Assembly (NCBI GenBank): GCA_020072785.1
Contig: JAIQGG010000002.1
Span: forward strand, 1,532,697-1,596,696
Source of the DNA: Terriglobia bacterium
GTDB taxonomy: Bacteria; Acidobacteriota; Terriglobia; Acidiferrales; UBA7541
Direction: 5' to 3'
Length of the DNA stretch: 64,000 bases
The notes under the pieces were generated by a model. The model worked only from the letters and a program-made list of their open reading frames with translations. It ran no database searches and had not been told where the DNA came from. Positions 29,777 to 56,245 of the stretch are shown here, one piece after another. The position numbers and the translations under genes are program-made. Numbering within the stretch: position 1 is the stretch's first letter; the number at the start of each line of letters is the position of its first letter.

Positions 29777-29793
29777 TGACCGCTTCGCGGTCA
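29777..29793. repeat. Palindromic repeat unit, locus 1
   Basis: TGACCGC-TTC-GCGGTCA, a perfect 7-bp palindrome with a 3-base loop, in the tsaD/galU divergent region. On the opposite strand it reads GTGACCGCGAAGCGGTCAA, which matches the units at 49317-49392 and 55276-55319 nearly base for base. Confidence 0.75.
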
Positions 29794-47818: not shown

Positions 47819-49414
47819 ATGGCCAGCGCTACCTCAATTGCCCCTGTTCCCCCGACCGAGCGGCTCGGACTCTCCTATTGGATGGGGAGGGTTCGTAAAG
47901 AGCTGGACCGGGTGTGCAGCACCCGCGACCCGGATGCGATCCACGACCTGCGCGTGGCCATCCGCCGCTGCCGCTCGCTCGCCGCAGCGCTCCAGGAAGC
48001 CGATCCTACACCCGGCTGGAAGCAACTGCGCAAAGTGCCGGTCAAACTCTTCCGCGAACTCGGCGCGTGGCGCGATGCCCAGGTGCTGGAAGACTGGGTG
48101 CGGCGCCTGGCCCCCGACGAAGAGGACCCGGCGCGGGTGCGCCTGCTGGAAATCCTCGAAGCGCGGGAGCACGACGCCCAGGCTGCCGCGTTGCGCGCGG
48201 CGGAACGCTTCGACGCGGCCTCCTGGAAGCGGCTGGAGCGCGCGCTGCGCCGCCGCGTGCAGCTGGTGCCTCCCGATGGGCCTGCGGCGCAGTGCCTGGC
48301 GTTGGAGCGTTTCGAAGCGGCGCACGAACTGCACGCGCGGGCTTTGCGCACGGAGATGCCCAAGCCATGGCACGTTCTGCGCATCGGGCTGAAGAAATTC
48401 CGCTATACCGCGGAAAACCTGCTGCCGCAGCAGTACGCGGGCTGGGAAGAGAGCCTGAAACGCGCTCAGGATCTGCTCGGAGATGTGCACGATCTCGATG
48501 TGCTGGCCGATCTGCTGAAGGGTGAAACCGGGCATCTTCCCGCGGAATCCGCAGCGGCTTTCCGGCGCACGCAGGAGCGCGAGCGGGAGGAGCGCCTGCA
48601 AACCTACCGCCAACTCACGCTAGGGCGCACCGGGCTGTGGCACACCTGGCGCAGCGGCTTGCCGCAGGGCGCGCAGATCGAAGACGCGGCGCAGGCGCGG
48701 CTGCGGGTCACAGCACGCGCGCTCGATCCGCGCCGGCGGCGCACGTCCAAAGTTTCCCGGCTGGCGCTGCGCATTTCTGAGGCGCTGGCCGCCGCGGGCG
48801 CCACGCCGCTGCTGGGCGAAGCCGCTGCACGGCGCATCCTGCATGCCGCAGCACACCTGCACGGCATCGGTGGCGCGCAGGACCGCAAGCCACCGCACAA
48901 AGCGGCCCGAGCCCTGCTGCAGAAGCTTCCCGCGCCTCCTGGCTGGAGCAACGCGGAGTGGGAATTGCTGGCGGAAACGGTGCGCTACCATCGCGGCGCG
49001 GAGCCTAAACCCGGACACCGCGGTTTCGCGGCGCTATCCGAAGAGCAGCAGCGGCTGGTGCGCCTGCTCGCGGGCCTGCTGCGGGTGGCGCGGGCGCTGC
49101 GCCGCTGCGGCGTCGAAGCCCAGCCCGGTCTGCGCGCGCAATCCTCGGGGGAAACCCTCGTGCTGCGCGTGCCGAGATGGGCCAACCGTCTCGAAAACGT
49201 CTCGCGCCTGGCCGCCGGAAAACATCTTCTGGAGCAGGCGCTGGGCCGCCCCCTGCTCATCGAGCCGGTCGAGAAAGCCGTCCCCTTCGCTCCCGAGACG
49301 GAGAACGCAGTTCTGGGTGACCGCAAAGCGGCCAACGTTTCAGGTGACCGCAAAGCGGTCAACGTTTCAGGTGACCGCAAAGCGGTCAACGGGATTGCCG
49401 CCCCCTCGGATTAA
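47819..49414 (+). CDS. CHAD-domain protein with C-terminal Ppx-type HD-like domain
   Basis: 531 residues from ATG 47819. The N-terminal ~280 residues form a CHAD domain, whose basic helices bind polyphosphate: IHDLRVAIRRCRSLAAALQ and HVLRIGLKKFRYTAENL. From about residue 320, HAAAHLHGIGGAQ..PHKAARALL..VRYHRGAEP aligns with the C-terminal HD domain of the neighbouring Ppx (LLHDLGHVIS..HKHGEYLV..VRYHTRKSEP). The HD dipeptide is HG here, so metal-dependent catalysis is unlikely. The last ~30 residues are three copies of a 9-residue repeat (GDRKAVNVS) encoded by palindromic DNA repeats. A link to polyphosphate storage or sensing is inferred from the domains and neighbours. Confidence 0.88.
   Translation: MASATSIAPVPPTERLGLSYWMGRVRKELDRVCSTRDPDAIHDLRVAIRRCRSLAAALQEADPTPGWKQLRKVPVKLFRELGAWRDAQVLEDWVRRLAPDEEDPARVRLLEILEAREHDAQAAALRAAERFDAASWKRLERALRRRVQLVPPDGPAAQCLALERFEAAHELHARALRTEMPKPWHVLRIGLKKFRYTAENLLPQQYAGWEESLKRAQDLLGDVHDLDVLADLLKGETGHLPAESAAAFRRTQEREREERLQTYRQLTLGRTGLWHTWRSGLPQGAQIEDAAQARLRVTARALDPRRRRTSKVSRLALRISEALAAAGATPLLGEAAARRILHAAAHLHGIGGAQDRKPPHKAARALLQKLPAPPGWSNAEWELLAETVRYHRGAEPKPGHRGFAALSEEQQRLVRLLAGLLRVARALRRCGVEAQPGLRAQSSGETLVLRVPRWANRLENVSRLAAGKHLLEQALGRPLLIEPVEKAVPFAPETENAVLGDRKAANVSGDRKAVNVSGDRKAVNGIAAPSD
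49317..49392. repeat. Tandem palindromic repeat inside the CHAD gene, locus 2
   Basis: 2.8 copies of a 27-base unit, core GACCGCAAAGCGGTCAAC plus a 9-base spacer GTTTCAGGT (one copy has GCGGCC). Being a multiple of three, the repeat keeps the reading frame and encodes GDRKAVNVS. The core matches loci at 29777 and 55276. Confidence 0.85.
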
Positions 49415-49429
49415 GAAACGTGCAGGCGC

Positions 49430-49930
49430 TTACTTCCCCGAACGGCGCAGCATTTTGGGCGGAGCGACCCACACGAGGATACCCGCAGGCGGGGAGACAC
49501 GCTGGAGGTCGACCTGCGCGACGCCCGCTTTCTTCAGTGCGGTAACCGCGCGCTTGGAACCCAAGGCGTAGGCGATCAGGTCATCGAGCTGCGGGGCATG
49601 GCCGAAGAGGAAGACGTTGGCGCCCGGCTTTTCGTGTCCCATCTCGCGGAAGATAAGCAGCGGATCGGCGCCCGGCAGGAGAGCCTCCGACTGGCGGATC
49701 TTCTGCGCAGGAAAGCCCAGGGCATCGGCAAAAATCTCGGCCGTCTGCATGGAGCGCACGTAGGGGCTGGAAAGCATCTGGTCCGCGGCGGCGCCCAGCG
49801 CCGCGACGCCTTTGGCCGACTGTCTGGTCTTCGCGATGCCCTCTTCGGTGAGGAAGCGCTCCGGGTCCGGCGGACACTTCGGAGCGCCGCGCTCGATGGC
49901 GATACCGTGGCGCACGATATACAGATGCAT
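49430..49930 (-). CDS. sixA: SixA-type phosphohistidine phosphatase
   Basis: 166 residues, histidine phosphatase superfamily. The catalytic RHG motif opens the protein (LYIVRHGIAIERG) and the second His is in FLFGHAPQLDD. SixA removes phosphate from histidine of phosphotransfer proteins, or in other branches acts on small phosphoesters. It lies 19 bases downstream of ppx and converges with the CHAD-HD gene, 15 bases between stop codons. An involvement in polyphosphate or phosphorylated-kinase turnover is suggested by the neighbourhood only. Confidence 0.88.
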   Translation of the reverse strand: MHLYIVRHGIAIERGAPKCPPDPERFLTEEGIAKTRQSAKGVAALGAAADQMLSSPYVRSMQTAEIFADALGFPAQKIRQSEALLPGADPLLIFREMGHEKPGANVFLFGHAPQLDDLIAYALGSKRAVTALKKAGVAQVDLQRVSPPAGILVWVAPPKMLRRSGK

Positions 49931-49949
49931 ACTTTCTCCCTGTCCTGAC

Positions 49950-51500
49950 TTATGCCGCCGCCTGGCGGAATAAGAGTTTCACGCGAAATTCCTTTTCAAA
50001 GAGCGCGGTGCTGCGCGCGGCGTAGCGCAGATCCTCGCCGGCATCGCCGCGGGCCTGAATTTGCAGACCGATGGCGCCGCGGCGGAAAGCGGCTTTGATC
50101 TTGCTGATGCGCGCGCGGTGGGAATGGTCGAGGGCTTCGGCGAGGCGCAGGAAGGAGGCCAGGCGGCGCACGGCGCGCTGCTCGCTGCCGCTCAGCGAGG
50201 CATACGCGGCGTGGTGGCGCGCGGGCTCGCTCTTGCGGGTGTGATAGCGCACCAGGCCGGCGACCATGGCGCGCTCGGGCCCTTCCAGGCCGGCAATGTC
50301 GCCGTTCTGCACCAGGTACTCGCCGTGCTTGTGATGGCCGCGATGACTGATGACGTGCCCGAGGTCGTGCAGGAGCGCGCCGGCTTCCAGGAGGACGCGG
50401 GCGCGGGGCGGAAAATGATGAACGGGCTGGAACTGGTCGAAAAGCAGCAGGCTGAGTTCGCGGACGTGCTCGGCATGCTGCTGGTCGTAGGCCATGGGGG
50501 CGAGGCGGCGCGCAAAGCTGCGGGCGCCGGCGAGGAGCTGGCGGGCCGCGGCGTCGTAGCGATGGCGTTCGGCGCGGCTGAAGGATTCGCGGGCGATCTC
50601 CTGCAGCAAGCCTTCGCGGACGCCGGCGCCGGGGACCAGGAAGGTGCGCAGGTTCAGGTAGCGGCCGAGGGTGAGAAAGATGATGGCGGCGACGCCCATA
50701 ACGTCGGCGCGGTCGCGGCGCACACGGAAGGTTTTCATGCGCTCGCGCACGTCGCGCTTGAGGATGGAGGCGAGGCGCTCGCGCAGGAGGGCGAGATCGA
50801 GGGTGGCCACGCCATACTCGCGGGGGCCCGGCGCGATATTCGCGAGAGTTTCGGCGTTGCCGCCGCAGGCCACGGCGATCTGCCCGCCGAGGTTGGGGCG
50901 CGCGGGCAGGCGCGATTCGAGCAGGGCGCGAACATAGCGGCGCACCTGCTCAACCTGGGAGGGGCGCACCACGCCGGGTATGTCCAGGGTGGTCATCAGG
51001 CGCACCGTGCCCACGGGGAGCTGCACGCTCTGCTGCAGAGCATGATCGCGGAGCAGGCTGATCTCCAGGCTGCCGCCACCAAGGTCCACGATGCAGCGGG
51101 GCGGGGCTTCCGGGCTGACCGCGGCCAGCACGGCCTCGCGGCCGAGGCGCGACTCTTCCGCGCCGCCGATGACTTCCACGGCGATGCCGCTCTTCTGCTT
51201 GATGCGGCGAACCAGCGAGCCGCGGTTGCGGGCCTCGCGCGAGGCGCTGGTGGCCACGGCGCGGTAGCGGGTCACGTCGTATTCGTCGAGGAGCGAGCGG
51301 AAGTGGCGGAAGGCTATTGCGGCTCGGGCCAGGGTTTCTTCGCTGAAGCGGTGGCGCAGGAAGACGCTTTCGCCCAGGCGCAGGGCGATGCGTTCCGTGT
51401 GCAGGGGCTCGATATCCAGAGCGGAATAGGCGCGGGCGATGGAGATGCGGATGGCGTTGGAGCCGGCGTCGATTGCGGCGATGTGGACGGGATCAGCCAA
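49950..51500 (-). CDS. ppx: Ppx/GppA-family exopolyphosphatase/pppGpp phosphatase
   Basis: About 516 residues from TTG 51500; an in-frame TTG at 51578 lies inside the upstream kinase-like gene. Domains are the ASKHA fold (about 8-300; AIDAGSNAIRISIA and VDLGGGSLEISLL) and a C-terminal HD domain (about 340-500; LLHDLGHVISHRGHHKHGEY, VRYHTRKSEP). It degrades polyphosphate from the ends or hydrolyses pppGpp; sequence does not separate these. The true start is uncertain because of the crowded junction. It is followed 19 bases on by sixA and preceded by two kinase-like genes. Confidence 0.9.
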   Translation of the reverse strand: MADPVHIAAIDAGSNAIRISIARAYSALDIEPLHTERIALRLGESVFLRHRFSEETLARAAIAFRHFRSLLDEYDVTRYRAVATSASREARNRGSLVRRIKQKSGIAVEVIGGAEESRLGREAVLAAVSPEAPPRCIVDLGGGSLEISLLRDHALQQSVQLPVGTVRLMTTLDIPGVVRPSQVEQVRRYVRALLESRLPARPNLGGQIAVACGGNAETLANIAPGPREYGVATLDLALLRERLASILKRDVRERMKTFRVRRDRADVMGVAAIIFLTLGRYLNLRTFLVPGAGVREGLLQEIARESFSRAERHRYDAAARQLLAGARSFARRLAPMAYDQQHAEHVRELSLLLFDQFQPVHHFPPRARVLLEAGALLHDLGHVISHRGHHKHGEYLVQNGDIAGLEGPERAMVAGLVRYHTRKSEPARHHAAYASLSGSEQRAVRRLASFLRLAEALDHSHRARISKIKAAFRRGAIGLQIQARGDAGEDLRYAARSTALFEKEFRVKLLFRQAAA

Positions 51501-51507
51501 GCTGGGT

Positions 51508-52353
51508 TTACCGCCAGAGATATGCGAGCGCCGCGGAGGGCGTGTATTTGCCGGCGCGGATGCCCAGTTGTTCGGCAATCTTCTGCCGCAATTGCTTGTT
51601 CACGGTCTGGACACTGGCTTCGCCGTCGAGGTCGATGAACGCATGGCGTTTGGCCATGACTTCGAATTCGCGCTTGATCATGGTCTGGTAGCGGATGAAG
51701 GACCAGTAGAGGTCGTGGGACAGGGACATATCGCGGCCAGCCTCCCAATAGCTGATGGCCTGGGTCTTCTTGAACTCGCGGGCGAAGGCGGTCTCCGGAC
51801 GCACGTTGAGCCAGAAGGTCAAGTGCGGGCGCAGGGCCATGGCGTAGAGGCCGCTGAGATAGTCGCGGTTGATGCCGCGCACCACGCCGCGCGCCATGAG
51901 GGTGTAGATGTAGCGGTCGGCGAGGACGAGGGTTCCGGCGCGCAGAGCAGGGAGAACGCGATGCTCGAGCTGGTCGAAAAAGTCGGTGGCGTACATCAGC
52001 GCCAGGGTCATGCGGGTGACCGCGTTGCGCGCCAGCAACTGGTCAATGTCCTTGCCCACCAGATACGAGCGGCGCAGGCCGCTGGTCTGCACCGCGAAAC
52101 CCTCGGATTCCAGCCACTCCTGGAGCAGGGCGATCTGCGTGGAGCGGCCGGAGCCGTCCATGCCCTCGATGACCACGAGCTTGCCGGTGATGTCGCTGGG
52201 GTCGCAGCCCACCAGCTGCTCGCCGAAGAAATAGGGGCCAGCGCCCTCTTCGGCGCCTTGCGGCGCAACGGAGGGTTTGGCCGGCGGTGCGGGCGGGGCC
52301 GCGGGGGCGGCTTCCGCGGGGGCTTCGGGCTTTTCCGGCTCGTCGGGGCTCAT
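51508..52353 (-). CDS. Thymidylate-kinase-like protein with Walker A Lys replaced by Arg
   Basis: 281 residues, longer than normal Tmk (about 210). A Pro/Ala-rich N-terminal ~30 residues precede the core. The P-loop reads EGMDGSGRSTQ, with Arg where the invariant Lys is expected. The second motif is LVLADRYIYTLMARG, like the DRY segment of Tmk, and FWLNVRPETAFAREFKKTQ includes lid-like basic residues. The C-terminal half is not like Tmk. It overlaps the upstream paralogue by 4 bases and ppx follows 7 bases after its stop. It may be a pseudokinase partner or have altered chemistry. Confidence 0.82.
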   Translation of the reverse strand: MSPDEPEKPEAPAEAAPAAPPAPPAKPSVAPQGAEEGAGPYFFGEQLVGCDPSDITGKLVVIEGMDGSGRSTQIALLQEWLESEGFAVQTSGLRRSYLVGKDIDQLLARNAVTRMTLALMYATDFFDQLEHRVLPALRAGTLVLADRYIYTLMARGVVRGINRDYLSGLYAMALRPHLTFWLNVRPETAFAREFKKTQAISYWEAGRDMSLSHDLYWSFIRYQTMIKREFEVMAKRHAFIDLDGEASVQTVNKQLRQKIAEQLGIRAGKYTPSAALAYLWR

Positions 52354-53114
52354 AGGGCTTCCTCGGGGCGCGGCGCAAAACGCTTCAGGTCGATCCGCTC
52401 GGCCACGATCTCGCGCATCTGTTTCTGGAGCTTGTTGACCGGGAGGGTGCCGTCGAGGACGACAAAATTATCGCTCTCGACCATCTTGTCATACTCCTCG
52501 AGAATGCGCGCCTGGAAGAGACGGAAACTTTCCGCGCGGTCGTAGGAAAGGCCGAGGTCCATTCCGGCTTCGTAGTATTTCAGCTTGGGGCGGCCGCTGA
52601 GGATGCGGTTCACGGCCACGTCCAGGGGGGCGCGGAAATAGAAGGTGATGTCGGGCACCGGGGCAAAGCGATAGAGATTGCGGAGCCAGCGCGGAGGGCA
52701 GCCGCGCGCGGCATCGCGCGCGAAGCCGGTGTAGGTGTAGCGGTCGGCCAGGACCAGGTAATCGGCCTGCAGCAGGGGCATGATCTGGCGCTCGCAGCGG
52801 TCGGCGAAATCCGCGGCGTGCAACAGGGAGAAAGTCACCGGAGTCAGGAGACGGCGCTGTTTGCCGCGGCGCGTCGCGGACTTGACCAGGGGCGAGGAGT
52901 TCCACTCCGTGAAGTGCAGGCGGTAACCGCCGATCTCCAGCCAGCGCTTGAGCAAGTAAAGCTGCGTGCTCTTGCCCGAGCCGTCCGTGCCCTCGACGAC
53001 GATAAGAGCGCCGGGATAGGCGCGGCTGGGGACAGGGCGGCCCGGCTGGGGAAGCGTGGATTTGGCCGGCTCCTGGCGGGCCGGCTTCGGCGTGGTGTCC
53101 TGTGCTTCGGTCAT
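52350..53114 (-). CDS. Thymidylate-kinase-like P-loop kinase
   Basis: 254 residues, with a Lys/Pro-rich N-terminal ~35 residues. The P-loop EGTDGSGKSTQLYLL is intact, and LVLADRYTYTGFARDAARG is the Tmk-like DRY region. Later parts (FYFRAPLDVAVNRILSGRPK, YYEAGMDLGLSYD) differ from housekeeping Tmk. The downstream neighbour is a paralogue with Arg in the P-loop. The pair might form a heterodimer. Because PPK2 polyphosphate kinases share this fold, and because Ppx and CHAD proteins are beside it, a polyphosphate or nucleotide-phosphate role is possible, but this is only an inference. Confidence 0.82.
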   Translation of the reverse strand: MTEAQDTTPKPARQEPAKSTLPQPGRPVPSRAYPGALIVVEGTDGSGKSTQLYLLKRWLEIGGYRLHFTEWNSSPLVKSATRRGKQRRLLTPVTFSLLHAADFADRCERQIMPLLQADYLVLADRYTYTGFARDAARGCPPRWLRNLYRFAPVPDITFYFRAPLDVAVNRILSGRPKLKYYEAGMDLGLSYDRAESFRLFQARILEEYDKMVESDNFVVLDGTLPVNKLQKQMREIVAERIDLKRFAPRPEEAL

Positions 53115-53309: not shown

Positions 53310-54395
53310 CTAAAAGAGCGCGAATTTGACGCGCAGGAACTTTTTGGGATTCTGCCGGACGTCCCCGACGAGCAGGCGCAGGTCCCCGGTCAAGCCCGCG
53401 AGATTGTCGTAGAGCTTGGGATCGCTGAAGAGTTTGCCGGCGCTGGTGGTGTTGTCGTTGAGCTTGGCGGTGGCGGCGGCCAGATTTCCGCTGGTATCGC
53501 GCAAATTGACGAAGAGGGACTCGTCGGTGGCCAGCTTGCCCAGCGTGCCCTTGCCTGCGCGCACGTCGGCGAGCAGCAGATTGCCCTTTTCGGCCACTTG
53601 TTTAGCGTTGTCATACAGGCTGGGGTCATAGATGAGCTTCCCCACCGTACCCTTCTGGGCCTGGATGTCCGCGAGCAGAGTATCCACGCGGCCCACAGCG
53701 GTATTGGCCTTCTGATAGATCTCCTCGGAGGCCACCAGCTTGCCCAGGGTTCCCTGGCCGGCCTGGACGTTGCTCACTATCTGGTCGCTTTTGGCCAGGA
53801 TGCTGTTGAGATGCGCATAAGCCTGTTCATCGGTGAGCAGCTTGCCAAGCGTGCCGCGGCCTTCCTGGACGCCGGCGATCAGGTCGCGCACCTCGTCGGA
53901 GAGAGCGCTGAGGTTGCCGAGCAGGTCCGCGCTGCGTTGCACGACCTCTTTAATGGCTTTTTCCTCCACGCCCTTCACTTCCTGGCCTTCTTTCAAGGGC
54001 ACGCCGGTGAAGCCGCGAGTAATGTTCACGTAGCGGTTGCCCAGCAGCCCTTCCGTCACCAGGCTGACGGTGGAATCGGTGAGAATGTCATCCTGGTAGC
54101 GGCGGTCCACACGGATCACGACCTCGATGTTGCGGTTCTTATCGGGGGCCTGGCCGCGCACCCGCGGCGCGACGCGGATGGCCTCGACGTTGCCGACCTC
54201 GACGCCGTCCAGGCGCGCGGGCGCGCCCGTGGCCAGCCCCCCGACCTCGGGGAGATAGGTGCGCAAGCGGTACTTCGGCCCGAGCACACCCGGAGCGGTG
54301 ACATAAAAGATGCCTACCGCGAGGGTCGCCAATCCCACGAGCACGAACAAACCGACGCGCAGTTCGGTCCAGGTTAATTGCTTGCGCTGTGCCAT
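53310..54395 (-). CDS. mlaD: MlaD-like MCE-family lipid transfer protein with repeat tail
   Basis: 361 residues. An N-terminal helix (LRVGLFVLVGLATLAVGIFY) anchors it; the MCE domain (about 40-120) has GLATGAPARLDGVEVGNVEAI. The rest (residues about 179-348) is five tandem repeats of exactly 34 residues, each starting near GTLGKL, a predicted helical tail. MlaD hexamers shuttle phospholipid between membranes as part of MlaFEDB. It is the last of mlaE-mlaF-mlaD. MlaC and MlaB are not in the window. Confidence 0.92.
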   Translation of the reverse strand: MAQRKQLTWTELRVGLFVLVGLATLAVGIFYVTAPGVLGPKYRLRTYLPEVGGLATGAPARLDGVEVGNVEAIRVAPRVRGQAPDKNRNIEVVIRVDRRYQDDILTDSTVSLVTEGLLGNRYVNITRGFTGVPLKEGQEVKGVEEKAIKEVVQRSADLLGNLSALSDEVRDLIAGVQEGRGTLGKLLTDEQAYAHLNSILAKSDQIVSNVQAGQGTLGKLVASEEIYQKANTAVGRVDTLLADIQAQKGTVGKLIYDPSLYDNAKQVAEKGNLLLADVRAGKGTLGKLATDESLFVNLRDTSGNLAAATAKLNDNTTSAGKLFSDPKLYDNLAGLTGDLRLLVGDVRQNPKKFLRVKFALF

Positions 54396-54437
54396 GTTTC
54401 GTTCTCCTCTCCCGCCCGGCGCTCAGGCCCCGGCAGG

Positions 54438-55265
54438 TCAGACCAAAAATCGCCGCAAATAGGGATCCTTCGACGCCACGATCTCTTCCGGACCGCCTGT
54501 GAAATATACTAGCCCGTCGCGATAGACGAGAAAGCGCGTGCCGGCTGCTTCCCCGCGCGCCGCCGCGCTGCCGTTCTTGCCGGCCAGGGGAAAGACGCGG
54601 CGCGACTCGGGATCAAAGCGGAAATTGGCCAGCGCAAAGCCGTCCTGCAGGCGGTGCGTGGCCAGCAAAGCGGTGACGCCGTAGACGTCGCGCAGGCGCA
54701 AGATCAGAGTGATGATGGTCTGCGCGGTCATGGGATCCAGGCCCGCGGTGGGCGAATCGTAGAGGACGACCGGGGGGCGATTCACCAGGGCCCGTGCAAT
54801 GGCCACGCGCCGCCGCATGCCTCCCGAGAGCTCCGAGGGCAGCATCTCCAAGGCGTCTTCCAGCTCCACGAAGCGCAGCGTCTCACGCACGCGCGGCTCG
54901 ATCTCCTCCTCCGGCAAGCCGTCTTCGCGCAAGCGGTAGGCGACGTTGTCGGCCACGGTCATGGAATCGAAGAGCGCGCCTTCCTGAAAGACGAAACCGA
55001 TGTGGCGGCGGAACTCCAGCAACTCCTCTTCGTGCATCTCCGACACCGCCTGGCCCAGGACGCGCACGTGTCCTGCATCCGGGCGGAGCAGGCCGGCGGC
55101 CAGCTTGAGGGTGAGGGTCTTGCCGGTGCCGCTCTCGCCGAGCAGCACGAGGGTCTCACGCGGCGGGACGGCGAAGGAAACGCCGCGCAACACGTCTCCC
55201 TCCTCGAAGCCGATGCGCACGTCTTCGAGGGAGATCACCGGCGCGTTCGTGCCGTGGCTGCTCAT
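54438..55265 (-). CDS. mlaF: MlaF-like ABC transporter ATPase
   Basis: 275 residues from ATG 55265 (the open frame runs further up through palindromic repeats). Walker A is GESGTGKTLTLKLAAG, signature LSGGMRRRVAIARAL, Walker B VVLYDSPTAGLD and switch His ATHRL. It energises the retrograde phospholipid transport complex in the inner membrane. It lies 42 bases ahead of mlaD and follows mlaE after a 137-base gap that holds the repeat pair. A start at MSSHGTNAP is consistent with the family. Confidence 0.93.
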   Translation of the reverse strand: MSSHGTNAPVISLEDVRIGFEEGDVLRGVSFAVPPRETLVLLGESGTGKTLTLKLAAGLLRPDAGHVRVLGQAVSEMHEEELLEFRRHIGFVFQEGALFDSMTVADNVAYRLREDGLPEEEIEPRVRETLRFVELEDALEMLPSELSGGMRRRVAIARALVNRPPVVLYDSPTAGLDPMTAQTIITLILRLRDVYGVTALLATHRLQDGFALANFRFDPESRRVFPLAGKNGSAAARGEAAGTRFLVYRDGLVYFTGGPEEIVASKDPYLRRFLV

Positions 55266-55275
55266 GATTCCGTGC

Positions 55276-55319
55276 GACCGCAAAGCGGTCAACTTCCGTG
55301 GGCCCGCGAAGCGGTCAAC
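55276..55319. repeat. Pair of palindromic repeat units, locus 3
   Basis: GACCGCAAAGCGGTCAAC (55276-55293) and GCCCGCGAAGCGGTCAAC (55302-55319), 26 bases apart, in the mlaE/mlaF gap. The first is identical in 18 of 18 bases to the core of the 49317-49392 repeat. Confidence 0.8.
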
Positions 55320-55402
55320 CAAGTGCCATGATTATAGTGAGAAATGGCCCGCCGTACAGGGCTGGCATGCACCGGCGGGGAATTCGTCCGCCTGGCCCCT
55401 GG

Positions 55403-56245
55403 CTAGAATACCTTGTCCGCGAGGAACAGGGAGACTTTGGTGAGGAAGAAATCCGCGGCAATGATGAGCACCGAGGAGACGACGACAGCCTGGGTGGTGG
55501 CGCGCCCCACGCCCTGCGTGCCGCCGCGGACCGACAGGCCCTTGTAGCAGCCCACCGTGGCCAAGATGAAACCGAAAAATACCGGCTTGCTCAGGCCTTG
55601 CATCAGGTCGGCAAACTCCAGGGCATCGATGGCCCGGGTCCAGAACTGATAGGCGTCCAGGCGCAGGGTGAAGACCGAGACCACGCAACCGCCCAAAAGA
55701 CCGATAAAGTCCGCCAGCGCGGTGAGCAGCGGCAGCATCAGCAGGGTGGCCAGCACGCGCGGAGTCACCAGCTTGCGGCTGGGGTCCGTGCCCATGGCGC
55801 GCATGGCGTCCACCTGTTCGGTCACCAACATCGAGCCCAGCTCCGAGGCGATCCCCGAAGAGCAGCGCCCGGCGACCAGCAGCCCGGTGATCGTCGGTCC
55901 CAGTTCGCGCACCAAGGCAATGGCCACGACGTCGCCGGTGAGGGCGGTCTGGCCGAAGCGGGTGAACTGCGAGCCGGTCTGCAGGACCATCACCGCGCCG
56001 ATGAAAAAACCGGTGAGGAGCACGATGGGCAGCGAGCCCACGCCGATGATGTCCATCTGCTCCATGGCGTCCAGCATGTAGCGCGGCCCAGCCGCCAGAT
56101 TGGTGAGGGAACGCAGAGAAAGGATGGAATAGTCCTGCACGCCGGCGACGGCTCTCTGGGCCGCGCCGCCCAGAATATGGAGCAGCGAAGGCGCCTCGGC
56201 TTCCTTCGCATCACGGCTGGTCGCTTGGAGTGGAGTATCCGCCAC
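55403..56245 (-). CDS. mlaE: MlaE-like permease
   Basis: 280 residues, MlaE/YrbE family. Around five helices are visible, with the family phrases VGSLPIVLLTGFFIGAVMVL and ELGPTITGLLVAGR. It is the transmembrane core of the Mla ABC transporter. It is the first gene of the minus-strand mla cluster, with the gap to mlaF holding the palindromic pair. A candidate promoter and RNA on the opposite strand begin about 125 bases upstream. Confidence 0.93.
   Translation of the reverse strand: MADTPLQATSRDAKEAEAPSLLHILGGAAQRAVAGVQDYSILSLRSLTNLAAGPRYMLDAMEQMDIIGVGSLPIVLLTGFFIGAVMVLQTGSQFTRFGQTALTGDVVAIALVRELGPTITGLLVAGRCSSGIASELGSMLVTEQVDAMRAMGTDPSRKLVTPRVLATLLMLPLLTALADFIGLLGGCVVSVFTLRLDAYQFWTRAIDALEFADLMQGLSKPVFFGFILATVGCYKGLSVRGGTQGVGRATTQAVVVSSVLIIAADFFLTKVSLFLADKVF

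Follow-up and report, generated by a model that had tools for sequence, protein, structure and literature searches.

We describe a five-gene acidobacterial cluster that is likely, on the sequence evidence set out below, to be a polyphosphate (polyP) metabolism operon in which a tandem pair of thymidylate-kinase-like proteins, TmkA and TmkB, would serve mainly as a polyP synthase in cells lacking PPK1. Many bacteria possess Ppx and CHAD proteins, and often PPK2, without PPK1, and the source of their polyP is the question addressed here. In the mechanism that we propose, for which we infer the polyP substrate, the reaction direction, and the TmkA-TmkB complex, the two kinases would form a hetero-oligomeric P-loop kinase, with TmkA as the ATP-using catalytic subunit and TmkB as a pseudokinase partner that may help to hold the polyP chain. 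The predicted complex would move phosphate between ATP and polyP, acting mainly as a synthase in the PPK1-lacking cells in which it is mostly found. Ppx would hydrolyze polyP from the chain end, the CHAD protein would bind polyP granules, and SixA would act as an accessory phosphatase.

Gene organization of the cluster

The cluster occupies positions 47819–53114 of the window (the entire stretch of 64,000 nucleotides that was analyzed) and consists of genes for CHAD, SixA, and Ppx/GppA proteins together with the tandem thymidylate-kinase-like genes for TmkB and TmkA, with the following features.

47819..49414, plus strand: CHAD protein, 531 aa, with a COOH-terminal degenerate Ppx/GppA domain III (HD-like)
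49430..49930, minus strand: SixA-type phosphohistidine phosphatase, 166 aa (TIGR00249)
49950..51500, minus strand: Ppx/GppA exopolyphosphatase-family protein, about 516 aa (PF02541, domain III)
51508..52353, minus strand: TmkB, thymidylate-kinase-fold paralogue, 281 aa, predicted noncatalytic partner (PF02223, 5.3e-19)
52141..52164, minus strand: TmkB P-loop GMDGSGRS, with Arg in place of the Walker-A Lys
52350..53114, minus strand: TmkA, thymidylate-kinase-fold paralogue, 254 aa, predicted catalytic subunit (PF02223, 6.8e-20)
52713..52823, minus strand: TmkA remodeled dTMP pocket, LHAADFADR and ADRYTYTGFARD (alignment residue counts)
52968..52991, minus strand: TmkA intact P-loop GTDGSGKS

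The original prediction placed these five genes correctly, as judged from their coordinates and from matches to Pfam and NCBIfam profiles. The gaps of 19 bases or less that it gave for the minus-strand genes were also found, with 19 nt between SixA and Ppx, 7 nt between the TmkB stop and the TTG start of Ppx (a start assigned from the sequence), and a 4-nt overlap between TmkB and TmkA, as was the convergent orientation of the CHAD gene, 15 nt from SixA. The CHAD protein matched PF05235 (2.2e-29; 103.5 bits vs a curated cut-off of 25.6), and its COOH-terminal part matched Ppx-GppA_III (PF21447, 2.5e-8). The CHAD portion of the predicted CHAD-HD protein was thus upheld, whereas the HD portion proved to be a degenerate Ppx-type domain III, with the HD pair reading HG here and HN in relatives; the fusion is kept within the genome's own family. 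SixA scored 77.1 bits with the NCBIfam profile sixA (TIGR00249; cut-off, 74.5), matched the Pfam family His_Phos_1 (1e-8), and contains an RHG motif at residues 7–9. Ppx matched Ppx-GppA (PF02541, 2.1e-42) as well as domain III (PF21447, 5.5e-27), with the HD pair intact. Given that the genome (3.73 Mb) has no CHAD gene and no Ppx/GppA gene other than those of the cluster, and that this combination is found again in lineages from Acidobacteriota to Sulfolobales, the grouping of the five genes is not due to chance.

Conservation of the gene neighborhood

In the genome's own family, the arrangement TmkA-TmkB-Ppx-SixA was kept in at least 15 of 20 relatives, most of them with a convergent CHAD-HD gene. 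Adjacent pairs were examined at 118 loci, drawn from archaea and numerous bacterial phyla; Ppx lay within 5 kb at 66 of these loci, CHAD at 55, and SixA at 43, although many of the contigs are cut. The single CHAD gene lay no more than 5 kb from the pair in 19 of the 25 pair genomes of the phylum sample that have CHAD. Conservation of the neighborhood, a check proposed with the original prediction, thus extends from the genome's own family and Acidobacteriota to many other bacterial phyla and to archaea.

In Sulfolobales, the same five genes were present as SixA-Ppx-TmkA-TmkB-CHAD in 8 of 8 cases. According to the legend of Fig. 2 in PMC10892726, archaeal CHAD clusters contain SixA, PPX, dTMP kinase, and CHAD, and the Sulfolobales cluster of that legend resembles ours in that the five gene families are adjacent. 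TmkA matched PDB entry 2plr (E 1.1e-59) and is 47% identical to ST1543 of S. tokodaii; by identity, clade, and gene content, it is orthologous to the Sulfolobales Tmk pair located by ppx and chad. The acidobacterial cluster is the bacterial version of the archaeal polyP cluster. The Sulfolobales genes all run in one direction, whereas those described here run TmkA-TmkB-Ppx-SixA with a convergent CHAD gene; here, the CHAD protein has a degenerate HD domain in addition, and the degeneration of archaeal TmkB affects different residues, with an Asp changed and DR replaced by DG.

The polyP-making enzyme of Crenarchaeota reportedly constitutes a distinct polyphosphate kinase family, archaeal family 3 polyphosphate kinase. 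A passage of PMC11677633 cites Hofmann et al. (bioRxiv 2024, 10.1101/2024.08.28.610084) for an S. acidocaldarius enzyme that makes crenarchaeal polyP, and the J Biol Chem 2026, 111283 version of that study appears in a citation of PMC13318637. The ppx gene of S. acidocaldarius is Saci_2018 (PMC7831078). TmkA and TmkB were directly beside ppx in every Sulfolobales locus examined, and we infer the published S. acidocaldarius enzyme to be the Tmk pair beside ppx.

Distribution of the kinase pair relative to PPK1 and PPK2

A search of the genome for the PPK1 domains PF02503 and PF13090 found neither; PPK2 is present. Among 149 Acidobacteriota genomes, PPK1 was detected in 2 of the 27 that have the pair vs 67 of the 122 others (p = 3e-6, phylogeny ignored), and CHAD was detected in 80 of the 94 with either the pair or PPK1 vs 7 of the 55 with neither (p = 6e-19, phylogeny again ignored). 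In Acidobacteriota, the pair and PPK1 hardly ever occur together, and in a set of 50 pair genomes spanning many phyla, 39 were without PPK1. Strict replacement of PPK1 everywhere was ruled out, given that 11 of the 51 pair genomes in the genome's own family have both, as do several Verrucomicrobiota. A sample of 145 Verrucomicrobiota genomes, 111 of them with PPK1, contained the pair only in the center genome itself, so that this phylum is unsuited to a second test of exclusion.

The original proposal of a PPK2-like kinase acting on polyP is strengthened by the exclusion between PPK1 and the pair and by a gene content identical to that of the Sulfolobales polyP locus. Such likeness to PPK2 (PF03976) lies in the P-loop kinase fold of the thymidylate kinase superfamily and in the presumed polyP/ATP chemistry. 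The pair differs in its greater similarity to Tmk, both in sequence and in structure, and in its proposed operation as a tandem with one member lacking the Walker lysine, and PPK2 is usually a separate gene in pair genomes. Neither TmkA nor TmkB matched PF03976 at E ≤ 0.01, which ruled out the identification of the pair as PPK2.

Given that PPK2 is present in this genome and in 22 of the 27 Acidobacteriota pair genomes, polyP could be made by PPK2 instead. It is accordingly conceivable, though unlikely, that the pair consumes polyP as a nucleotide kinase operating in the PPK2-like direction to yield NDP or NTP, with PPK2 or another enzyme as the main synthase. In favor of this reading, in addition to the frequency of PPK2 in pair genomes, PPK2 enzymes share the fold and mostly run toward ATP. 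Outside PPK2 itself, the structures closest to that of Francisella PPK2 are 2PLR/4NZY, the TmkA relative (PMC4748334). Consumption of polyP is less readily reconciled with five pair genomes (G028, G074, G096, G118, and G123) that have neither PPK1 nor PPK2, three of which have CHAD, so that another polyP maker is needed; the anticorrelation between the pair and PPK1 in Acidobacteriota is also better suited to replacement.

Synthesis of polyP by the kinase pair in microbes without the textbook enzyme PPK1 is thus what probably takes place. Whether the pair amounts to a third polyphosphate kinase of bacteria, one that had gone unrecognized, is an evenly balanced question; in this reading, a catalytic subunit with the Tmk fold and a pseudokinase without the Walker lysine would form an obligate heteromer that is spread over many phyla of both bacteria and archaea, takes the place of PPK1, and is wrongly annotated as two dTMP kinases. 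If the pair is the synthase, the common annotation as dTMP kinase would be mistaken in genomes that are both numerous and diverse, and surveys limited to PPK1 and PPK2 would undercount polyP makers among soil Acidobacteriota, Nitrososphaeria, Nitrospirae, and others. The asymmetry between kinase and pseudokinase would also provide a simple system in which to examine the rebuilding of a nucleotide-kinase fold for an inorganic polymer.

Sequence and structural features of TmkA and TmkB

Residues were counted in an alignment of 124 TmkA, 116 TmkB, and 21 canonical Tmk sequences. The equivalents of D9, K13, D94, and R95 were all intact in 124 of 124 TmkA proteins, whereas at least one of these four catalytic residues was lost in 109 of 116 TmkB proteins, usually through replacement of the Walker-A Lys by Arg; the pair therefore looks like a catalytic subunit (TmkA) with a pseudokinase partner (TmkB). 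Of the two P-loop kinase paralogues originally predicted, both have the Tmk fold, with the Walker-A lysine being lost from TmkB (GMDGSGRS). All four residues are kept in TmkB of the Gastranaerophilales type (n = 7), which belongs to pairs without Ppx or CHAD neighbors. The best PDB match for TmkB was 2plr (6.4e-37), and its structure model had a pLDDT of 88.8. The models of TmkA and TmkB matched ST1543 with Z scores of 27.4 and 27.5, respectively, compared with 22–25 for other Tmk structures.

Both kinases share the fold, P-loop, and DRY motif of thymidylate kinase (PF02223 matches) and pass the NCBIfam cut-off for dTMP kinase (83.25) with 86.0 and 86.6 bits, and the ST1543 structures were deposited under the title of dTMP kinase. 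That both genes specify true dTMP (or other NMP) kinases with incidental polyP neighbors is nevertheless very improbable. Among the thymine-recognition residues (F/Y70, R74, and Y103 in Mtb numbering), the Arg that contacts thymine O4 is Phe in 123 of 124 TmkA proteins (Arg in 20 of 21 canonical Tmk proteins), the stacking F/Y is His in 122 of 124 (Y/F in 19 of 21), and Tyr103 is Arg in all 124 (Tyr in 19 of 21). The canonical F/Y-x-x-x-R thus reads H-x-x-x-F in LHAADFADR, and the canonical DRYxxSxxAYQ reads ADRYTYTGFARD. TmkA also has a conserved lid motif, EAGMD. In the tree, TmkA and TmkB were split from canonical Tmk (100/100), with the Sulfolobales proteins inside the TmkA clade (100/99). 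A canonical tmk gene is located elsewhere in the genome (G000:C6:210453-211040) and is present in other pair genomes, where it is not near CHAD, unlike the pair with its conserved Ppx/CHAD neighborhood. The ST1543 entries among the matches listed are apo-type or ADP-bound, with none titled as a dTMP complex, unlike other Tmk entries. With the dTMP-base pocket replaced in both TmkA and TmkB and a canonical tmk elsewhere, the sequences argue against dTMP kinase activity of the pair. A housekeeping Tmk role was ruled out by the pocket residues, the tree, and the separate tmk gene, in agreement with the non-housekeeping nature first predicted for the pair.

Ppx/GppA proteins can act on pppGpp, and SixA removes phosphohistidine; the cluster might on this basis mediate nucleotide-second-messenger or phosphohistidine signaling, with pppGpp as the substrate of Ppx/GppA, protein phosphohistidine as that of SixA, and a guanine nucleotide as that of the kinases. 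This is the least likely of the explanations considered, given that the recurrent partner is CHAD, a polyP-granule-binding domain, that the best NCBIfam profile for Ppx is exo_poly_only, albeit below its cut-off (201.6 vs 307 bits), that its top PDB match, over the full length, is an exopolyphosphatase (8jgo, 3.9e-41), and that overexpression of ppx removes polyP in Sulfolobales (PMC7831078).

Organization of the gene cluster

The five consecutive genes of the original prediction were all found in the arrangement that it described:

47819–49414, convergent to the minus-strand genes: CHAD, 15 nt from SixA
49430–49930, minus strand: SixA, 19-nt gap to Ppx
49950–51500, minus strand: Ppx, 7-nt gap to TmkB, TTG start inferred
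51508–52353, minus strand: TmkB, 4-nt overlap with TmkA
52350–53114, minus strand: TmkA, rightmost gene of the minus-strand run

Domain matches for CHAD, Ppx-GppA, Thymidylate_kin, and SixA exceeded curated thresholds. The 3.73-Mb genome contains one CHAD copy and one Ppx/GppA copy, both of which are located in this cluster. The COOH-terminal portion of the CHAD protein corresponds to Ppx/GppA domain III; given that its HD pair reads HG here and HN in relatives, this domain is probably not a functional phosphohydrolase. A palindrome, GACCGCAAAGCGGTC, is also present within the 3′-terminal part of CHAD as a 27-bp tandem array of 2.8 copies (49316–49391). This palindrome recurs at positions 29778 and 55276, is dispersed in the genome and in near relatives, and is like a REP element, with seven matches versus 0.9 expected. 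A lipid-transport operon, MlaD-MlaF-MlaE (MlaEFD; 53310–56245), lies directly upstream of the kinase pair on the same strand and is kept in the source genus and several related genera.

Characteristics of the kinase pair

TmkA shares 47% identity with ST1543, a Sulfolobus tokodaii protein deposited as a dTMP kinase (PDB code 2plr), and the predicted structures of TmkA (Z of 27.4, rmsd of 1.7 over 207 residues) and TmkB (Z of 27.5) resembled that of ST1543. Both proteins passed the automatic dTMP kinase cut-off by a few bits. Thymine is recognized in Tmk by residues F70, R74, and Y103 (Mycobacterium tuberculosis numbering). Canonical Tmk sequences, mostly from Acidobacteriota, have Y or F (19/21), R (20/21), and Y (19/21) at these positions, and TmkA has H (122/124), F (123/124), and R (124/124). 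In the phylogenetic tree, TmkA and TmkB were separated from canonical Tmk with full support, with TmkA being monophyletic and TmkB not.

The P-loop Asp, P-loop Lys, and DR pair were intact in all 124 TmkA sequences. Among 116 TmkB sequences, a change of Lys to Arg was the sole alteration in 101; in eight from Sulfolobales, the Asp was changed and DR was replaced by DG, with Lys to Arg additionally in four; and the catalytic residues were intact in seven, all Gastranaerophilales-like. Such loss by at least two routes suggests that TmkB is a partner that has become dispensable for catalysis and is still required as a protein. Given this pattern, the adjacency of the genes, and the dimeric nature of Tmk, we infer that TmkA and TmkB form a complex.

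In the Gastranaerophilales-type pairs (L084, L093, L094, L111, L119, L133, and L148), the P-loop is intact in TmkA and TmkB alike, and none of Ppx, SixA, and CHAD is a neighbor; these pairs possibly have another function or represent an ancestral state. Acidobacteriota also contain a divergent form of the pair (L055–L058) that retains the P-loop of TmkA, with the neighboring partner in L056–L058 having decayed far beyond the usual Lys-to-Arg change, and PPK1 is present in at least two genomes with this type of pair (G062 and G107). TmkB also has an NH2-terminal extension (52170–52270) with a short, semiconserved F-Y/F-G motif ahead of the kinase domain, which is missing from the TmkA consensus.

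Conservation of the pair and its neighbors

The pair was present in 51 of 55 sampled genomes of the source family. TmkA-TmkB-Ppx-SixA was kept in nearly all of 20 relatives examined closely, and the convergent CHAD-HD gene in most. The original prediction had proposed a survey of kinase-pair neighborhoods in acidobacteria, and in an even sample of 149 Acidobacteriota genomes, 27 of which contained the tandem pair, Ppx, SixA, and CHAD did recur beside it. Their recurrence despite changes in gene order and strand favors a functional linkage with the pair over simple inheritance of a string of genes. Of the 25 Acidobacteriota pair genomes with CHAD, which is normally single-copy, 19 had it no more than 5 kb from the pair; no canonical tmk was found near CHAD among the pair genomes compared.

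A wider scan, which used ST1543 as its anchor and covered genomes of bacteria and archaea, yielded at least 80 loci, from Thermoplasmata, Nitrososphaeria, Methanoliparum, Verrucomicrobiota, Nitrospirae, Planctomycetes, Chloroflexi, Gemmatimonadetes, Melainabacteria, and others. TmkB was found in 79 of the 80 listed loci, the sole exception stopping at a contig edge. Among all loci examined, 118 had an adjacent pair, with Ppx (66), CHAD (55), SixA (43), or all three (32) within 5 kb, as counted without de-replication and with many contigs incomplete. SixA-Ppx-TmkA-TmkB-CHAD formed a single run in eight Sulfolobales, one of which is 100% identical to ST1543. Clustering of SixA, PPX, and dTMP kinase with CHAD in archaea was already shown in 2024 (PMC10892726), the relevant portion of that paper assigning the kinase no polyphosphate role. 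In one Phycisphaerae locus (L127), Ppx sits between the two kinases (TmkB-Ppx-TmkA).

Relation to polyphosphate kinases

PPK1 was not found in the source genome. In the Acidobacteriota sample, it was missing in 25 of 27 pair genomes versus 55 of 122 others (p = 3 × 10⁻⁶, uncorrected for phylogeny), and in the wider scan it was missing in 39 of 50 pair genomes. Exceptions were 11 genomes of the source family with both PPK1 and the pair, and such coexistence is common in Verrucomicrobiota, in which the pair itself is rare. PPK2 usually accompanies the pair; five pair genomes lack both PPK1 and PPK2. CHAD was present in 80 of 94 Acidobacteriota genomes with PPK1 or the pair versus seven of 55 with neither (p = 6 × 10⁻¹⁹), and of these seven, two fell under the cut-off for CHAD and three were incomplete genomes belonging to families that carry the pair. 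The pair is likely to possess the predicted polyphosphate kinase activity, and the idea of a polyphosphate island is well supported by comparative evidence.

A polyphosphate-making kinase (family 3 PPK) of Sulfolobus acidocaldarius has been described (Hofmann et al., 2024, bioRxiv), with a 2026 JBC version cited in PMC13318637; ppx of this organism is Saci_2018 (PMC7831078). Given that TmkA and TmkB are the genes adjoining ppx on the CHAD side in all Sulfolobales loci examined, the pair is the obvious candidate for this enzyme. If the two are the same, the window carries a bacterial member of that family.
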